A DNA stretch of 64,000 bases from Candidatus Gastranaerophilales bacterium (GTDB lineage Bacteria > Cyanobacteriota > Vampirovibrionia > Gastranaerophilales > Gastranaerophilaceae). Under the pieces are notes generated by a model, which saw only the letters and a program-made list of their open reading frames with translations, was not told the origin of the DNA and searched no databases. Numbering within the stretch: position 1 is the first letter of the stretch; the number at the start of each line of letters is the position of its first letter. The DNA lies in assembly GCA_024695865.1 (NCBI GenBank), contig JAILHI010000001.1, forward strand, positions 1 through 64,000. Direction: 5' to 3'. The position numbers and the translations under genes are program-made. Shown here piece by piece: positions 2,555 through 45,570 of this stretch.

Positions 2555-2646
2555 TTTGTAACAAATTGTTAAACAGACTTTTGTTTTCGGAATAAAAAAT
2601 TTTTCATTGTCATCTCATGAATATATGTACAAATAAGGATAAAAAG

Positions 2647-5600
2647 ATGACAATTACGGCAAATACGGAATACAAAATAAGCGAAAAGGCATTTTCGGCG
2701 GCAAGATATATATGTTCAAAAATAAGCAATCAAACGGCAAGAAAAAGAGCCTTTAAAGCCTTAATTTGTCTTGATGTACTTGCAGATTACCTTTTTTCAA
2801 ACGGCTATAAAGTTGATATTTCAAAAAATTTGTATAAAATTCCGAAAATTAACGAGGATTTTGAATTTACCGATTTGCATTATAACGGCAAGTTTATAAA
2901 CCTTGTTCCCGTAGTAAACGGAAAATTTATTTTAATTCCTAAAGCCCATTTTGCCTACAATGTTGTGCCTGATTTGTACATAGCGGCAGATTACAGCCAG
3001 ACAACAAAAAAAGTTAAATTTTTAGGCTGCATAGAAAAGCAAAACATCAGTAAAAGCAGACATAACGACAAATATTTTATAATGGAAATCGGACAACTTG
3101 ATTCTCCCGAAAATATTGAACCGTTTTTAAACACAATCAAAGTAAGCGATTTGACGGAAGGCAATCACGACCTTTTTGCATCTTTCTTTATTGATTATCT
3201 TGACGGAATACTCGAAAAAGAAAATGTCGAAAGACTTATTTTACACCTTGCGGAATGCAGAGAATGCCGAAACACTTTTGTGGAATATTTTGATTATGAA
3301 TCGATAGTCAAAAATACAAAAAAATTCCCTGATTTATTCCACGACCACACATTAGACATCGTAGGAGCGGCGGCGGTAAACGATGAAAAATACAAAAACT
3401 TTAAAGAAGTAACCTTGGAAATCGAAAAAGAACCCGATGAATACGAAGAAGACGAAACTTCCGAAAAAAATATAGAATCCGCAATAGAGGATCCTTTACA
3501 GGTTCTGTACGGAAAGGGTAAAAACCGTGAAATCTTTGACTTGTTAAACAATACCAAAAAACAAGCCGCAAAGAGTATTTTAGCGGGTGTAATGGACGAT
3601 ATTGCAAACGAAATTGACACTCACACCTCACAAAAAGAAGTAAAAAATTCAAGCAAACAGGGTGTCATTAATCCCGAATATTATACGGAGGACTTGTCCG
3701 AAGGATATGACCACTTTACACCTGTAAAGAAGATTGACGAGGAAGAACAGCGCAAACCCGCAGAAAACATAAAAGAAAAAGAAGAAGCCGCAAAAGAAGA
3801 AAATATTTTAGCGGAAGAACCAAAAGAAACAGAAAAGGAAATTCATACAAATTCAGAGGGCAAACCTTTATTTTTGGAAGATGTAATTCTTTCGGACATG
3901 GAGACCGTTAATACCAACCCCGTACAACCTGCGGTTACCCCTGATTTTATGAGAGAAAGTGAAAACTTTAATTACACAATCTCTCAACAGCCTGTTAATA
4001 CAAGTTTTTCGGATAACGACGATATATTGATTATTGAGGACGACGAGGAACCCGCCGCACAAACACCGACAGTTCAGCCGAAGCCCGCCGAAACAGACGA
4101 TGATGCTGATTTGATAATTTTTGATGATGAAGATAATCAAAACATTACCTCTGTTCCCGCACAACCTCAACAAAGTTATGATGATTTATCGGATTTTGCG
4201 CCTGTCAAAAACGAAGAAGAAAATTATATATTTGAAAACCTTTCAGATAAATCAACCGTTTCAGATGATGATATGTTAATTCTTGACTACGAAGACGAAA
4301 CATCGGCTCAACCGCAGGCAGTTCAGCCGCAGCCGTCTGAAACTGACAGCGATGATATGCTAATTCTTGATGACGGGGACGAAACACAACCGCTCGCAGC
4401 AGACAATGAAAACATGCTTATTCTTGATGATGAGGACGTTGAACCCGTTGTTCAGTCACATGTTATTCAGCCTAAACCCGCTGACTCTGAAGATGAAGTT
4501 TTGATTTATAACAACGATGAAACTTCGGTGGATTTAACCGACGAATTTGACGGCAAAAAAGAGGAAAAGAACGATTTTGTCCCCGAATCTCTGGTTTTAT
4601 CGGAAGAAGATTTAATAGGTATCAATAATAACGACGACTACTATTTTTATCCCGATGAGGAACTGATTAATATTAATGCGGAAGATATTGATTTGGTAGA
4701 TGAAAACGATGCTGAATATTTTTCGGACAACGTAAAATCTGAAGATTCTTCTGATTTTGATATGTTCACAATGCCGCAAACTCCTTTTGTTCCGACCGCT
4801 CCAGCCGAAACTGACAATGACGATATGCTCATTCTCGATGATGAGGACGAAACACCGACTCAACCGCAGACAGTTCAGCCACAAGCGATTGAAACGGACG
4901 ATGATGATATGCTCATTCTTGGCGACGAGGACGAAACACCCGTTGTTCAGCAGCAACGACAACCTCAACCACTCGAAACGGACGAGGACGATATGCTGAT
5001 TTTTGACGACGAGGACGAAACACCCGTTGCTCAACAGCAACGACAACCTCAACCGCTCGAAACGGACGACGATGATATGCTCATTCTTGACGACGAGGAC
5101 GAAACACCCGTTGTTCAACAGCAAAGACAACCGCAACCGCTTGAAACGGACGACGACGATATGCTCATTCTCGATGATGAGGACGAAACACCGACTCAAC
5201 CGCAGACAGTTCAGCCACAAGCGATTGAAACGGACGACGACGATATGCTCATTCTTGATGATGAGGACGAAACACCGACTCAACCGCAGACAGTTCAGCC
5301 ACAAGCGATTGAAACGGACGAGGACGATATGCTGATTTTTGACGACGAGGACGAAACACCCGTTGTTCAGCAGCAACGACAACCGCAACCGCTTGAAACG
5401 GACGAGGACGATATGCTCATTCTCGATGATGAGGACGAAACACCCGTTGTTCAGCAGCAACGACAACCGCAACCGCTCGAAACGGACGACGATGATATGC
5501 TCATTCTTGACGACGAGGACGAAGCACCCGTTGTTCAGCAGCAACGACAACCTCAACCGCTCGAAACGGACGATGATGATATGCTTATTCTCGATGATGA

Positions 5601-7968
5601 GGACGAAACACCGACTCAACCGCAGACAGTTCAGCCACAAGCGATTGAAACGGATGACGACGATATGCTCATTCTTGATGATGAGGACGAAACACCCGTT
5701 GTTCAGCAGCAAAGACAACCGCAACCGCTTGAAACGGACGAGGACGATATGTTCATTCTTGACGATGAAAACGAAACACCGACTCAAGCGCAGGCAGTTC
5801 AACCAATGCCCATTGAAGCAGACGACGATACAATTCTTCTTGATGAAACGGACAATATGCCCATTCTTCAGGAAACAGAGGAAATAACACCGATTGCGGC
5901 AGATGATGACCTTCTCATTGATGAAAATGACTCTGACAATTTAATTCAGGAAGATATTCAAAATGATGAAATTGTTCTTGATTCTTCAGACGATGAAGTA
6001 TTAACTTTTGACGATTCGGAAAATGATGTTTTGGTTGAGTCAGATAACACCGATACTCTTATCGAAGAAGAAAAACCCGCTGAAACAATTCAGAGTGAAG
6101 AAACTTCTCACACATTAGACGGTATTCAGACCGAAGAAAGCGATGATTTGTTATACTATGACGGCGAAAGTGTAGAAGAACAACAAACCGCTCCCGACAA
6201 CAATTATCTTGAAAACGAATTTTCCGCCCAAGACGATGATAATAACCTGATTTTTAATGAAGATGATACACTGGTTTTAGACGATGATAATTCCTTTGTA
6301 AGACCCGCAAGTGTTGCAGGAGCAGAAAGTTCTTTTGCAAAACCCGCTTCTTTACAGGGTTTGGAAGATGACGATGAAATCATCGGCAATAAACCCGTAT
6401 CGGAAAACGATGTCCTTGATTTAGTAGAGGACGATAACGACGATATAATGATACTTGACGATGAAAACCCGCAGGACGAACTGTCATCTTCAACCAAAAT
6501 GTCTTTTGATGATGAAGACGAAACAATTGTTATTGACGACGAAGAGGAAAAAGAAGAAGAAAAAGAAGAAGAAAAACCGAAATCGGCTCCGAGCCAACTG
6601 GATTTAATTCTTAATTCTCTTAGCGAAAAAGAAAAAGCACAACTTGAGAAAAAGAACGAAGAAGCAAAAACCGAACCGAAAACTGAACCTGTACAAAATA
6701 TAAACGACATTATTACACAGAAACTTTCGCCGGTAAATGAAACCCCTGCGGAAGAAACTGCGGCAAAACAGGAAGAACCCGTTGTTCCGCCTCCGTCGCC
6801 GACACCGCCGAGAAGAATTTTCAGAGAAATTAAAGATGCAATCTCGGCAAAAGAAGAAGCAATCGAAGAAGGCAGAATCAGCACTGCCGCCGAAGATACG
6901 GATAACGATATTCAGGAGCCCATTGTTAACGCTTCCCACGCAGACGAAGATGAGTATGAATACGTTTATGTAGAAGAAGGCGAAGAAGGTTACGAAGATG
7001 CCGAATTTGTCGATGATGAAGAAGAACCTCAACAACAGGAAGTTCAAAAAGCACAATCGGTAAAAAAATCCAAAAAATCTGATGAAGATTTTGAAGAAGA
7101 AGATGAATATACCGAAGATGATGAAGAAAAATACGAAGAAGACGACGAAGAGGAAGACGAAGAAGGCGACGAAGAAGAAGGTTCAAAAAAGAAAAATCTT
7201 ATAAAAATAGGCGTAATTGCCGCCGCAGTGCTTGTTGTTCTTGCAGGCGCAGGATTTGGCGCAAAAGCCCTGTTCTTTAAAGATAAAAATAATACCTCCG
7301 TTGCCTTGGAAGCAGATGCACCCGCAATTTCTCCGACAGATATCGGTAATGTCGAAAATGCGGAAGAAGGCGGCGGTCTTGAAATTCCAAACGATAATGA
7401 AACTGCGGAAACACTGCCGCCTGCCGATGATGCCGTTCCCTCCGACGATGAAGGCGGATTGGCAATTCCGAAGGACGAAGCGGCTCAAACACCTCCCCCC
7501 GCTCCAAAACCCGTTCAGGCAAAAGCGGGAACAAAAGAAGCAACTACGGACGATATGAACAAAGCTTTGACAAATGCCTTTTCGGATACTCCTTCCGCTG
7601 TAACCGTAAGCAAAGTATCGTGGGGAATTAATGCAAGTTTAACAACCGATTCCGCCATAAAAATATACGTTCAGAATACGGGCAAACTGATAAAAAGCGC
7701 TCTGCTTAACAATTTAACCAACTTAAAAGGCGTTAATCCGACCCAACCCGTTAAAATTCAGATAAAATACGGTGCGCAGGGTACTTTGCAGGACGCTGTC
7801 GTTATGAAATCATGCGGAGCAAACGAAGTTGACGAAATTGTATTACAAAGTGTTAAACAAACCGTTCAAAATTGTCCTCTCCCGATACTTTCGGAAACCA
7901 CTCGACAAGCCTATGAACAAACAACAGGAAACAAAACCGTAAACTTATCGTTAACAGTTAAATTTTAA
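2647..7968 (+). CDS. Giant acidic repeat membrane protein: DUF1822-like region, anti-sigma zinc motif, TM, TonB-like C-terminus
   Basis: Protein of about 1773 residues, not a described family as a whole. Residues 1-180 resemble the cyanobacterial DUF1822 family (A..Y.LAV, yL...G pattern, then a beta-rich part ending in LGCIE). Around residue 200 there is HLAECREC (H200, C204, C207), the HxxxCxxC signature of zinc-binding anti-sigma factors. Residues ~250-1510 are very acidic and low-complexity, with twelve exact-length 28-residue repeats at 721-1056. One membrane helix follows at ~1519-1541 (IGVIAAAVLVVLAGAGFGA), flanked by a Lys-rich stretch, then a Pro/Asp-rich linker. The last ~120 residues look like a TonB C-terminal domain (VKIQIKYGAQGTLQDAVV). 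Predicted topology is cytoplasmic N-terminus and periplasmic C-terminus. Start ATG 2647 has AAGGA at 2635-2639; an upstream in-frame ATG at 2617 has no ribosome-binding site. The sigma-like and STAND genes follow directly. Role in sigma control is inference. Confidence 0.8.
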   Translation: MTITANTEYKISEKAFSAARYICSKISNQTARKRAFKALICLDVLADYLFSNGYKVDISKNLYKIPKINEDFEFTDLHYNGKFINLVPVVNGKFILIPKAHFAYNVVPDLYIAADYSQTTKKVKFLGCIEKQNISKSRHNDKYFIMEIGQLDSPENIEPFLNTIKVSDLTEGNHDLFASFFIDYLDGILEKENVERLILHLAECRECRNTFVEYFDYESIVKNTKKFPDLFHDHTLDIVGAAAVNDEKYKNFKEVTLEIEKEPDEYEEDETSEKNIESAIEDPLQVLYGKGKNREIFDLLNNTKKQAAKSILAGVMDDIANEIDTHTSQKEVKNSSKQGVINPEYYTEDLSEGYDHFTPVKKIDEEEQRKPAENIKEKEEAAKEENILAEEPKETEKEIHTNSEGKPLFLEDVILSDMETVNTNPVQPAVTPDFMRESENFNYTISQQPVNTSFSDNDDILIIEDDEEPAAQTPTVQPKPAETDDDADLIIFDDEDNQNITSVPAQPQQSYDDLSDFAPVKNEEENYIFENLSDKSTVSDDDMLILDYEDETSAQPQAVQPQPSETDSDDMLILDDGDETQPLAADNENMLILDDEDVEPVVQSHVIQPKPADSEDEVLIYNNDETSVDLTDEFDGKKEEKNDFVPESLVLSEEDLIGINNNDDYYFYPDEELININAEDIDLVDENDAEYFSDNVKSEDSSDFDMFTMPQTPFVPTAPAETDNDDMLILDDEDETPTQPQTVQPQAIETDDDDMLILGDEDETPVVQQQRQPQPLETDEDDMLIFDDEDETPVAQQQRQPQPLETDDDDMLILDDEDETPVVQQQRQPQPLETDDDDMLILDDEDETPTQPQTVQPQAIETDDDDMLILDDEDETPTQPQTVQPQAIETDEDDMLIFDDEDETPVVQQQRQPQPLETDEDDMLILDDEDETPVVQQQRQPQPLETDDDDMLILDDEDEAPVVQQQRQPQPLETDDDDMLILDDEDETPTQPQTVQPQAIETDDDDMLILDDEDETPVVQQQRQPQPLETDEDDMFILDDENETPTQAQAVQPMPIEADDDTILLDETDNMPILQETEEITPIAADDDLLIDENDSDNLIQEDIQNDEIVLDSSDDEVLTFDDSENDVLVESDNTDTLIEEEKPAETIQSEETSHTLDGIQTEESDDLLYYDGESVEEQQTAPDNNYLENEFSAQDDDNNLIFNEDDTLVLDDDNSFVRPASVAGAESSFAKPASLQGLEDDDEIIGNKPVSENDVLDLVEDDNDDIMILDDENPQDELSSSTKMSFDDEDETIVIDDEEEKEEEKEEEKPKSAPSQLDLILNSLSEKEKAQLEKKNEEAKTEPKTEPVQNINDIITQKLSPVNETPAEETAAKQEEPVVPPPSPTPPRRIFREIKDAISAKEEAIEEGRISTAAEDTDNDIQEPIVNASHADEDEYEYVYVEEGEEGYEDAEFVDDEEEPQQQEVQKAQSVKKSKKSDEDFEEEDEYTEDDEEKYEEDDEEEDEEGDEEEGSKKKNLIKIGVIAAAVLVVLAGAGFGAKALFFKDKNNTSVALEADAPAISPTDIGNVENAEEGGGLEIPNDNETAETLPPADDAVPSDDEGGLAIPKDEAAQTPPPAPKPVQAKAGTKEATTDDMNKALTNAFSDTPSAVTVSKVSWGINASLTTDSAIKIYVQNTGKLIKSALLNNLTNLKGVNPTQPVKIQIKYGAQGTLQDAVVMKSCGANEVDEIVLQSVKQTVQNCPLPILSETTRQAYEQTTGNKTVNLSLTVKF
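4807..5814 (+). repeat. Twelve tandem 84-bp coding repeats (28 residues each)
   Basis: The array is exactly 1008 bp, 12 x 84, inside the giant acidic protein gene. Each unit encodes ETDxDDMLILDDEDET followed by one of two linkers: type A (PTQPQTVQPQAI) or type B (PVVQQQRQPQPL). Unit order is A B B B A A B B B A B A, the last one diverged. Degenerate relatives of the DDMLILDDED core occur before the array (near 4020, 4260, 4350, 4410) and after it. High nucleotide identity between units and the mosaic order of linker types indicate recent duplication or gene conversion. No frameshift is seen within the array. Confidence 0.95.
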
Positions 7969-42250: not shown

Positions 42251-42278
42251 AAAAACTCTCCTTTACGGAGAGTTTTTT
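42251..42278. terminator. Bidirectional terminator between ompH-like and DUF378 genes
   Basis: The stem AAAACTCTCC/GGAGAGTTTT has a 5-base loop, with T-tracts on both strands. It serves the plus-strand OmpH-like gene and the minus-strand DUF378 gene ending at 42289. Confidence 0.85.
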
Positions 42279-42810: not shown

Positions 42811-43071
42811 TTAATTTTTTCTGAAATCTTCAAGAACCTTATACAAACTCGGCGCTTCCTGAACGGACACATTACCCGTCGGAACGGACAAAACCTCAAC
42901 AACTGTTTCGCCGCCCGCATAAGCAATAGAGATAATATCACCTGCTTTTAACTGTTTAGACGGTTTTGCAGGGTTTCCGTTTACGGAAATCCTGCCCTTA
43001 TCGGAAGCATCGTTTGCAACGGTTCGTCTTTTTATAAGTCTTGATACCTTTAAAAACTTGTCAAGCCTCAT
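42811..43071 (-). CDS. rqcP: S4-domain RNA-binding protein, RqcP-like
   Basis: An 86-residue S4 protein: MRLDKFLKVSRLIKRRTVAN, GRISVNGNPAKPSKQLKAGD, then VVEVLSVP. Size and sequence match RqcP (YabO) of ribosome-associated quality control, which works with RqcH in C-terminal alanine tailing; heat-shock protein Hsp15 is a related alternative, usually longer with a basic tail. Its ATG overlaps the stop of the pilin-like gene by one base (TAATG). Confidence 0.85.
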   Translation of the reverse strand: MRLDKFLKVSRLIKRRTVANDASDKGRISVNGNPAKPSKQLKAGDIISIAYAGGETVVEVLSVPTGNVSVQEAPSLYKVLEDFRKN

Positions 43072-45239
43072 TATTTTGCTTCCGTCTTTTCTTCCGTTGT
43101 TACTGTTTCTTCTTTTACCGTTTTCTTTAACAGAGCCTTTTCCGCTTTCTTTTCGGCTTTATCAGCCTTAACGGAATTTTCAAGAGCCGCAAGACGTTCT
43201 TCAAACAGTTTGTTTTGACGTTCTAATGCTGCGATTTTATCTTCATTAACTTTGTTTCTGTCCTCGAGAATACGGATTTTTTCATCTAATCCCGCAATCT
43301 TGGCAAAAATATCCTGAACCATTGCATGAAGTTCTTTTATTGCGTTAACGCAGGCATAGAAGATTTCATCACGGCGTATTCTGAGATAACCGTCACGACC
43401 TTCCGAAACACTGTTCGGGAATACTTTCTGAAGTTCCTGAGCAATTACACCGACCAAAACTTCTTTCTTTTTATCACGTTTCATTGTGTAATTTTTGACT
43501 TTTAACTGAAGTATTTCCTTTAATCCCGCCGTATTATCACCGATAATATTTTTCAGTCTTGCATCGGAATAAATCGGGCTGGGTGCCGTAATAATCAAGT
43601 GGTTGTTTTCTGCATTGAGAACGGCGCTTGTTAGGTAATTTTCAACATCACTTTTGGTTAAAACCATATTGCCATCGGTATTTGAGTTAATATACAATTT
43701 TCCTCTTACAATCGTATAAGAATCGTCTGTATTACCGATTGTTGCTTTTTTGGTATTTAACTGTATTAACGGTAAATCTTCCGTTCCTGACGAGGACATA
43801 TCACCGAAAATCAACACTGAATCAGAAGTATTATTGGTGGCAGATATAGTATGTGAACTGACTGATGTTACACCACCGATGTATAATTTATTTGAACCTT
43901 CTTCGGTAAGAGCGACTGAATTACCTATAATAATATTTCCGGAGCCCGAAGCATTTGTTGATAAGGCTCCCGAACCGATAACAATATTACCGTTACCCGT
44001 CGTATTATTCTGTAAAGATGCATTCCCGATAGCTATATTGAAATCACCTGTTGTATTTTTCTGCAAAGATTGATAACCGAGAGAAGTATTGTGTTGACCC
44101 GTGGTGCTTTCATTCTGTGAATAATAACCTATTGCAGTATTAGCAACACCCGCAGAGGAAGCTTGCAGAGAACCCAAACCGACAGCGGTATTATAACCTC
44201 CTGTTGATAAACCTCTCATAGCGGAAGTACCTACTGCCGTATTACCGTTTGCAGTTGTATTTGATCTTAAAGAACTGCAGCCGATAGCGGTATTGCTATG
44301 ACCTGAAGTATTTGCATATAAAGAATAGGAACCGACAGCGGTGTTCCAGTTTGCATCAGCGCCGCTGTTAGAAACCATTGAAAAGGCACCGACAGCCGTA
44401 TTATTTGTATTTTCTCCGCAATTTTTCAGAGAATACGCACCGATACCCGTGTTTTTACTTGAAGTCGTTACACTTTGCAAGGCATATATACCGACACCTG
44501 TGTTCAAATTACCCGCTTGAATTCTTCTTAAAGAAAAAGCACCGAGAGCGGTGTTGCCGCTGCCCGTCATATTTGATGTAGGATATTCGGTTGTCATAAT
44601 TTTTCTGTCGCCGCCCATTGAATACTGACCGATTGCGGTATTCGCAGCACCTTTTGTGACAGTATAATTAATATTATCAATTACGGAATAACCTTCCGGA
44701 ACCTCAGATGTTGTTGTCGTTATTTCGTTCCAGTTATCATCATCACCTGTTTCCAGAGAAACCTGCTGTTCGTCCGTGCCTTCCGATTTAATTGAGGCAA
44801 GCGTATTAATACCGATTGCAGTATTGTAATAACGGTCAAAAGATATTTTACCGATTCCCGTATAATTTCCGTTGGTTTCTTTTTCGTAAAAATCAAGCAA
44901 ATGTCTTCTTACAACAGGCCCGCCCGATGCTCTGTTTCTTGTAATAATTGAGATTTTCGGGTTCAATTTCAAACCGAAAACATCATTCTGGTCGGTAGTT
45001 GCAATGCTCGAATCAATCGGAACTCTTTTGTCGCCGAGAACAATAGTCGAAGTGTTTCCGAGACCTGCATATATTGCGGCATTCTGAACAAGTGCGCCCT
45101 GTGTAATGTATTTAAAAGGCGCTTCACTCGGTGAGTTCTTCGATTTCAAAACTATCGGCATTGTTGCCGCCATAACCAAACTTATGATTACCATGGTAAT
45201 CAATGCTTCAGCTAGTGTAAAACCTTGTCTTTTTATCAT
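43071..45239 (-). CDS. Prepilin-like adhesin: type IV pilin N-terminus, beta-roll repeats, Peptidase_S74 chaperone
   Basis: A 722-residue chimera. Residues 1-35 are a type IV prepilin signal (IKRQGFTLAEALITMVIISL: cleavage after Gly, Phe+1, Glu+5). About 15 repeats of the NTA(I/V)G-x-SL type lie at ~135-450 (e.g. NTAVGSYSLYANTSG, HNTSLGYQSLQKNTTG), like the trimeric beta-rolls of YadA-type heads and phage fibres. Residues ~555-660 are an intramolecular chaperone with YSDARLKNI, whose Ser558 and Lys563 match the SDxRxK self-cleavage dyad, then VGVIAQELQKVFPNSVSE. A coiled coil and Lys/Glu tail end the protein. It probably forms a trimeric surface tip or minor pilin adhesin. It lies between dciA (10 bases) and rqcP. 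Confidence 0.87.
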   Translation of the reverse strand: MIKRQGFTLAEALITMVIISLVMAATMPIVLKSKNSPSEAPFKYITQGALVQNAAIYAGLGNTSTIVLGDKRVPIDSSIATTDQNDVFGLKLNPKISIITRNRASGGPVVRRHLLDFYEKETNGNYTGIGKISFDRYYNTAIGINTLASIKSEGTDEQQVSLETGDDDNWNEITTTTSEVPEGYSVIDNINYTVTKGAANTAIGQYSMGGDRKIMTTEYPTSNMTGSGNTALGAFSLRRIQAGNLNTGVGIYALQSVTTSSKNTGIGAYSLKNCGENTNNTAVGAFSMVSNSGADANWNTAVGSYSLYANTSGHSNTAIGCSSLRSNTTANGNTAVGTSAMRGLSTGGYNTAVGLGSLQASSAGVANTAIGYYSQNESTTGQHNTSLGYQSLQKNTTGDFNIAIGNASLQNNTTGNGNIVIGSGALSTNASGSGNIIIGNSVALTEEGSNKLYIGGVTSVSSHTISATNNTSDSVLIFGDMSSSGTEDLPLIQLNTKKATIGNTDDSYTIVRGKLYINSNTDGNMVLTKSDVENYLTSAVLNAENNHLIITAPSPIYSDARLKNIIGDNTAGLKEILQLKVKNYTMKRDKKKEVLVGVIAQELQKVFPNSVSEGRDGYLRIRRDEIFYACVNAIKELHAMVQDIFAKIAGLDEKIRILEDRNKVNEDKIAALERQNKLFEERLAALENSVKADKAEKKAEKALLKKTVKEETVTTEEKTEAK

Positions 45240-45249
45240 TTTTTAATCC

Positions 45250-45570
45250 TTATCCATTGTAGGTGATTCTTATATATTTAAAGCCGTTTAAAGCAATTTT
45301 CTTCGCTTCTTCTTTCAGTTTTTTATTGATTTCGGTTTTGATGTTGAAAATCTCGTTTGCAACAACAGAGTTGCTACATTTAATAAAAAGTTTTCCGTCT
45401 GATGAAAATTGCTGAGGATTTGAAAATTTTGCAAGATTTTCACCAACTACACCGCTCCAGCAGGAAAACAGTTTTTCCACTTTGGTTTCGTATTCATCGT
45501 TATACTGTAAATTTATAGTTGATAATATTTCCGCAGCAGTTTCAAAATCTGAATTGTCATTATCCGTCAT
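45250..45570 (-). CDS. dciA: DUF721 / DciA-like helicase operator protein
   Basis: A 106-residue protein with the DUF721 pattern: LFSCWSGVVGENLAKFSNPQ, then GKLFIKCSNSVVANEIF and a basic C-terminus. DciA loads or operates the replicative helicase DnaB in many bacteria without DnaC/DnaI. The short length is normal. It is preceded by a leader with a terminator hairpin, and followed after ten bases by the pilin-like gene. Confidence 0.78.
   Translation of the reverse strand: MTDNDNSDFETAAEILSTINLQYNDEYETKVEKLFSCWSGVVGENLAKFSNPQQFSSDGKLFIKCSNSVVANEIFNIKTEINKKLKEEAKKIALNGFKYIRITYNG

Follow-up and report, generated by a model that had tools for sequence, protein, structure and literature searches.

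A prepilin with a phage-fiber-like repeat head and a putative self-cleaving S74 chaperone in Gastranaerophilales

The 722-aa protein encoded at positions 43071..45239 (minus strand) of the window, the 64,000-nt stretch of Candidatus Gastranaerophilales DNA that was analyzed, is probably a modular type IV filament subunit bearing a phage-fiber-like trimeric adhesin along with its own disposable assembly chaperone. We assign this reading a probability of roughly 0.6. It is built on features that are present in the sequences themselves: three modules joined in one chain, an invariant Ser/Lys dyad, a fusion that recurs throughout the family, variable heads between constant ends, and a prepilin peptidase and pilus machinery in relatives. 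The gene is an ORF with an ATG start, preceded by an AAGGA Shine-Dalgarno-like site. Its coordinates had been given correctly by the initial annotation, which had also described a prepilin signal at the N-terminus, about 15 NTA(I/V)G repeats in the middle, and a Ser/Lys dyad (S558, K563) near the C-terminus; each was borne out by the matches and counts given below.

The protein begins with MIKRQG followed by FTLAEALITMVIISLVMAATMP, which is a prepilin (class III) signal. PF07963 (N_methyl) matches residues 3-26 with 26.3 bits against a cut-off of 21.2, and TIGR02532 scores 18.9 against a cut-off of 16.3, so both models lie above their curated thresholds. From these matches, and from the presence of a peptidase gene in the genome, MIKRQG (45222..45239, minus strand) is assigned as a type III (prepilin) leader peptide with a predicted prepilin peptidase cut after Gly6. 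Sequence and family comparison place a hydrophobic alpha1-N segment at residues 7-29 (45153..45221, minus strand), with Glu at +5 and Pro at +22. A Pro is found at +21 to +23 in 79 of the 83 members of the S74-prepilin family.

The linker and beta-rich entry region that follows (residues 30-138; 44826..45152, minus strand) contains no recognizable pilin globular domain (no Pfam match), and Gly and Pro residues occur where the alpha1-C stretch usually lies. Across the 28 residues from +26 to +53, members of the S74-prepilin family have a mean of 3.7 Gly/Pro residues, compared with 0-1 in four other prepilins of the source genome. The pilin module of the 722-aa protein looks reduced to alpha1-N. 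Because no usual pilin module can be recognized past this segment, where the chain is rich in Gly and Pro, the packing of an S74 prepilin in a filament may be atypical.

A survey of the genomes of 59 relatives, in which S74 domains were located from Pfam matches rather than from the motif, revealed S74 proteins in 31 of them. A count of paralogs, which had been proposed at the outset as a check, gives a single S74 copy in the source genome and 1 to 12 copies in each of these relatives. Ser and Lys occupy profile positions 1 and 6 in 71 of the 72 S74 matches; the remaining match is partial, and its ORF has SDLGLK, so the dyad is present in 72 of 72. This invariance holds although most of the S74 domain varies among relatives. 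A prepilin signal precedes the domain in 58 of the 59 S74 genes with a complete 5' end (56 clear by pattern and two with the variant AISLIETL..), and the sole exception is a phage-like protein. Likewise, 24 of 25 S74 genes carry the signal in a second sample drawn from other genomes of the same family.

Outside the family, a prepilin signal is absent from the single S74 gene read from another part of the phylum and from all inspected S74 genes of IMG/VR phages. Since the phage genes have none, the signal is not simply a companion of the S74 domain. Together with the 72 dyads and 58 signals, this indicates that the prepilin-S74 fusion is an old and maintained architecture in the order, and not an accident of assembly or annotation.

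Paralogs within multi-copy genomes resemble each other at both ends and differ between them. Identities for the N-terminus, middle, and S74 domain are 0.81, 0.44, and 0.93 in G316; 0.88, 0.57, and 0.81 in G023; and 0.93, 0.50, and 0.94 in G030. Identity thus amounts to 81-93% over the first 60 residues and to 81-94% over the S74 domains, but only to 44-57% over the middles. Because the ends are conserved and the middle varies in both identity and kind, the anchor and chaperone are constant while the head is exchanged, a pattern shared with the receptor-binding proteins of phages and the fibers of Bdellovibrio (PMC10769870). The existence of exchanged middles in up to a dozen versions suggests that relatives display phage-like adhesins on pili.

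At seven loci in the surveyed genomes, two or three S74 prepilin genes lie in tandem on one strand, close together or overlapping. This arrangement suggests that distinct subunits might be produced jointly and combine into mixed trimers. In three genomes the S74 paralogs often sit at the ends of contigs, and copy counts taken from draft assemblies are therefore probably too low. A contig scan that used the single 722-aa protein as the query found one genome of the same genus, whose source was goat duodenum. This source, together with gene content, genome size, and multi-megabase families within the phylum, tentatively points to a gut-dwelling relative of Gastranaerophilales (Cyanobacteriota); a 16S signature of cyanobacteria matched with two mismatches.

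The initial annotation had also named a prepilin peptidase and pilus genes as items to look for, and these were recovered in part. The source draft genome (89.5% complete) contains a prepilin peptidase, PilT-like ATPases, and six prepilins by N_methyl, but its assembled contigs yielded neither a secretin nor PilC, and no strong match to PilB; genomes of the same genus have these in whole or in part. (The contig that holds the peptidase gene, C49, also holds the start of a large protein at L123:9892-11982, reaching the contig end, whose N-terminus we take to resemble that of a Cas12a-type nuclease.) Among the relatives, a prepilin peptidase was detected in 51 of 59, PilC in 54 of 59, a secretin in 37 of 39, and PilB/T ATPases in 39 of 39, and most of those inspected have a compact PilP-like/secretin/PilB/PilC cluster. 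PilB adjoins PilC in two same-genus genomes, in one of which the secretin is adjacent too, and the secretin lies apart from PilB/PilC in two others. An S74 pilin gene is positioned directly upstream of the PilP-like/secretin/PilB/PilC cluster in G023, whereas the other pilus clusters inspected have no S74 gene nearby. Because it was seen in this genome only, such linkage is weak evidence.

Missing pilus core genes in the source draft genome would also fit a membrane-anchored trimer that is not a filament subunit. The prepilin-like N-terminus, whether cut or uncut, would then serve only as an inner-membrane anchor, and the self-cleaved fiber would stay in the periplasm or exit by another route. 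This possibility draws on the same reduced pilin module, with Gly/Pro residues breaking the alpha1-C stretch and no globular domain to be recognized, and on two fairly complete genomes (98% and 93%) that have S74 prepilins yet no prepilin peptidase detectable by PF06750 or PF01478. We nevertheless consider it unlikely. The N-terminus retains every element of the prepilin consensus, Glu +5 and Pro +22 among them, which a plain anchor would not require. Moreover, nearly all relatives have the PilB/PilC/secretin machine, and the variable heads suggest exposure to targets outside the cell. A filament subunit remains our preferred reading.

The C-terminal module (residues 558-722; 43074..43568, minus strand) is a predicted S74 chaperone/autoprotease with a coiled coil, and its predicted cut lies between Tyr557 and Ser558. 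PF13884 (Peptidase_S74) matches residues 558-611 with 47 bits against a cut-off of 22, and the match begins exactly at the predicted nucleophile, Ser558 (codon at 43566..43568, minus strand). The predicted general base is Lys563 (43551..43553, minus strand); both residues are invariant in relatives. The dyad motif, S558-D-A-R-L-K563 (SDxxxK), is located at the N-terminal edge of the domain, which confirms the residue numbers given initially.

A profile search with this region finds solved S74 domains, including those of phage tail fibers, MyRF (7dc3), and a neck appendage protein (3gud). A single-chain model of the S74 domain (pLDDT 77) has a long C-terminal helix predicted with high confidence. 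A Foldseek search of this model against the PDB returned nothing below E 0.001, and for this reason the sequence profile was used for fold comparison. Such a missing match is possible for one chain of an intertwined trimer. An AlphaFold model of the full-length protein, made from two sequences, was unusable (mean pLDDT 39.8).

The best reading of this module, given that its fusion is conserved across the family and order and that its Ser/Lys dyad is invariant, is a self-cleaving trimerization chaperone. Conservation of the dyad could be structural, in which case the domain would act as a trimerization chaperone that does not cleave and stays attached. This is quite improbable, however, because none of the 72 domains has lost Ser or Lys, even though the domain is variable over most of its length. 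The same dyad is also the nucleophile/base pair tested in MyRF, where Ser-Lys self-cleavage was demonstrated experimentally (PMC8326128). Likewise, a test of this Ser in a bacterial fiber, Bd3182 of Bdellovibrio, showed that the fiber cuts itself there (PMC10769870).

If the protein is indeed a filament subunit with a self-removing chaperone, then trimerization, self-cleavage, leader processing, export, tip placement, and adhesion could follow one another in this order. The prepilin N-terminus would enter the inner membrane, with the C-terminal end on the periplasmic side. The C-terminal coiled coils would bring three S74 domains together, and these would act as a template on which the stalk and repeat head fold as a trimer. 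Within the trimer, Ser558, aided by Lys563, would attack its own preceding peptide bond and release the 165-aa chaperone, and MIKRQG would be removed by the prepilin peptidase. The three alpha1-N helices would be engaged by the PilB/PilC/secretin machine of the cell. This would bring the trimeric head to the outside, with the filament tip or its vicinity as the most plausible location, and there it may bind a glycan or another cell.

The head itself (residues 139-444; 43908..44825, minus strand) is defined by its motif count, by a match to PHROG tail spikes, and by a colinear phage tail protein. It carries exactly 15 N[TIV][AGSVI][ILVM]G motifs, mostly with a 17-aa period (11 of 14 spacings). 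Shuffling the protein 2000 times gives a mean of 0.15 motifs and a maximum of 2, which rules out a chance origin of the repeat. The middle of the protein has matches among families of phage tail spikes and virion proteins (phrog_4636, E 1.5e-33), and the tail protein gp37 of Roseobacter phage CRP-1 aligns in one piece to residues 174-652. Judged by this alignment, gp37 joins this head and chaperone to a different anchor. Between head and chaperone lies a predicted stalk (residues 445-557; 43569..43907, minus strand), assigned from its position between annotated parts and from a low-confidence model.

The repeats had been likened at first to YadA heads or phage fibers. The likeness to phage fibers is upheld by the tail-spike match, but PF05658 (YadA_head) has no match in the window protein, whose 17-aa repeats fall short of the model. 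YadA_head matches do occur in 12 of 58 heads among S74-prepilin relatives (best E 1.6e-38). Heads in the family differ in kind, being made either of 17-aa NTAxG repeats, as in the window protein, or of 14-aa YadA-head repeats. One further S74 prepilin (L087:2478-4211) has a long Tyr/His-rich head stretch unlike other heads.

Since the head and chaperone are clearly common to phage tail proteins, the gene could conceivably be a prophage tail-fiber gene or its remnant that resembles a prepilin by chance. Its surroundings speak strongly against this. Directly upstream is a DciA-domain gene (45250..45570, minus strand; PF05258 and synteny), which is not thought to be part of the proposed mechanism. 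The start of an S4-domain gene (42811..43071, minus strand; PF01479 and synteny) overlaps the stop of the S74 gene, and a terminator-like hairpin, found by pattern match only, lies at 42251..42277 (minus strand), 3' of this three-gene run. The S4 neighbor is kept in four of the four same-genus genomes searched and the DciA neighbor in three; in the fourth, the contig stops just past the S74 gene. Other neighbors have housekeeping roles (a formate/nitrite transporter and PBP2-, MurE-, and QueA-like proteins), and neither prophage or phage structural genes nor a pilus cluster were found among them. These neighbors, the conserved gene order, and a prepilin signal in 58 of 59 family genes versus none of the inspected phage genes rule out the prophage reading, to which we assign a negligible probability.

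Elsewhere in the window, an 84-bp tandem repeat of about 11.6 copies (4806-5780, plus strand) lies inside the ORF at 2617-7968, which encodes a 1783-aa, anti-sigma-like protein with a zf-HC2 domain. Long open reading frames also run over this repeat in other frames and on the opposite strand.

To our knowledge, all characterized S74 domains cut only themselves, once, beside the catalytic serine, and the dyad lies at the domain boundary in the 722-aa protein too, which makes it very improbable that the domain is a protease acting on other proteins and merely displayed by a modular pilin. That interpretation follows the InterPro name, peptidase, and is how the domain is listed for modular pilins in the survey by Raynaud et al. 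(2021, PMC8179133).

A broader proposal, which we hold more tentatively than the reading of the single protein and think could well be wrong, is that the family represents domesticated phage-fiber display. Type IV filament machines in these gut bacteria would extrude self-processed homotrimeric receptor-binding fibers, and up to about a dozen exchangeable phage- or YadA-type heads per genome, set between a constant pilin anchor and a self-removing chaperone, would give pili a variable specificity. If true, this accounts for the S74 "peptidase" on many modular pilins as a domain that builds the trimeric tip before cutting itself away, and it shows a single receptor-binding module passing between phage tails and pili. 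Uncultured gut bacteria would also gain a testable adhesion repertoire.

The initial annotation had placed the mechanism outside standard type IV pilus models, and this does not stand. Homotrimeric minor pilins at the pilus tip are established for TcpB and CofB (PMC9565799), and prepilin plus S74 (IPR012902-IPR030392) is among the 15 commonest modular-pilin architectures in a published list (PMC8179133). A claim of a wholly new mechanism would be too strong. A literature search for a prepilin with an S74 domain found no dedicated paper, and as far as the literature shows, four points are new: the reading of the S74 domain as a module that builds pilin trimers and then removes itself, the heads of phage and YadA type, the reduction of the pilin module, and the sets of paralogs with constant ends.

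Modular type IV pilins share with the 722-aa protein a prepilin signal and an S74 domain. In the survey, the prepilin-S74 architecture is only counted and is taken as a peptidase activity, and the text consulted describes no head, chaperone role, self-cleavage, dyad conservation, or paralog repertoire (PMC8179133). Like its counterparts there, the protein has extra functional modules after the pilin part, namely the repeat head and S74 domain, but its pilin module seems pared down to a single helix. TcpB and CofB of type IVb pili are likewise minor pilins with C-terminal beta-rich domains that form a homotrimer at the tip or in the initiation complex; for them, no S74 chaperone, self-cleavage, phage- or YadA-type head, or dispersed repertoire is described (PMC9565799).

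The mosaic adhesive trimer (MAT) fibers of Bdellovibrio resemble S74 prepilins as a bacterial, genome-wide repertoire of trimeric fibers, and 13 of them end in a self-cleaving SDxxxK S74 domain, with S782 as the residue demonstrated (PMC10769870). They follow a signal peptide and a conserved beta domain of about 130 aa, and pilins are unmentioned in that work. Phage tail fibers and spikes with S74 domains (endosialidase F, the T5 L-shaped fiber, and CRP-1 gp37) likewise combine a repeat head with a C-terminal S74 domain, but have a phage tail anchor where the window protein has its prepilin signal. Trimeric autotransporter adhesins share the YadA_head repeats found in part of the family, but they possess a C-terminal outer-membrane translocator; no such beta-barrel anchor is present in the window protein, whose C-terminus consists of the S74 domain and a predicted coiled coil. 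Finally, MYRF is also a membrane-anchored trimer with an S74/ICA domain and Ser-Lys self-cleavage. In this eukaryotic transcription factor, however, the N-terminal part is freed from the membrane (PMC8326128), whereas the S74 prepilin has its anchor on the N-terminal portion, which would be retained.
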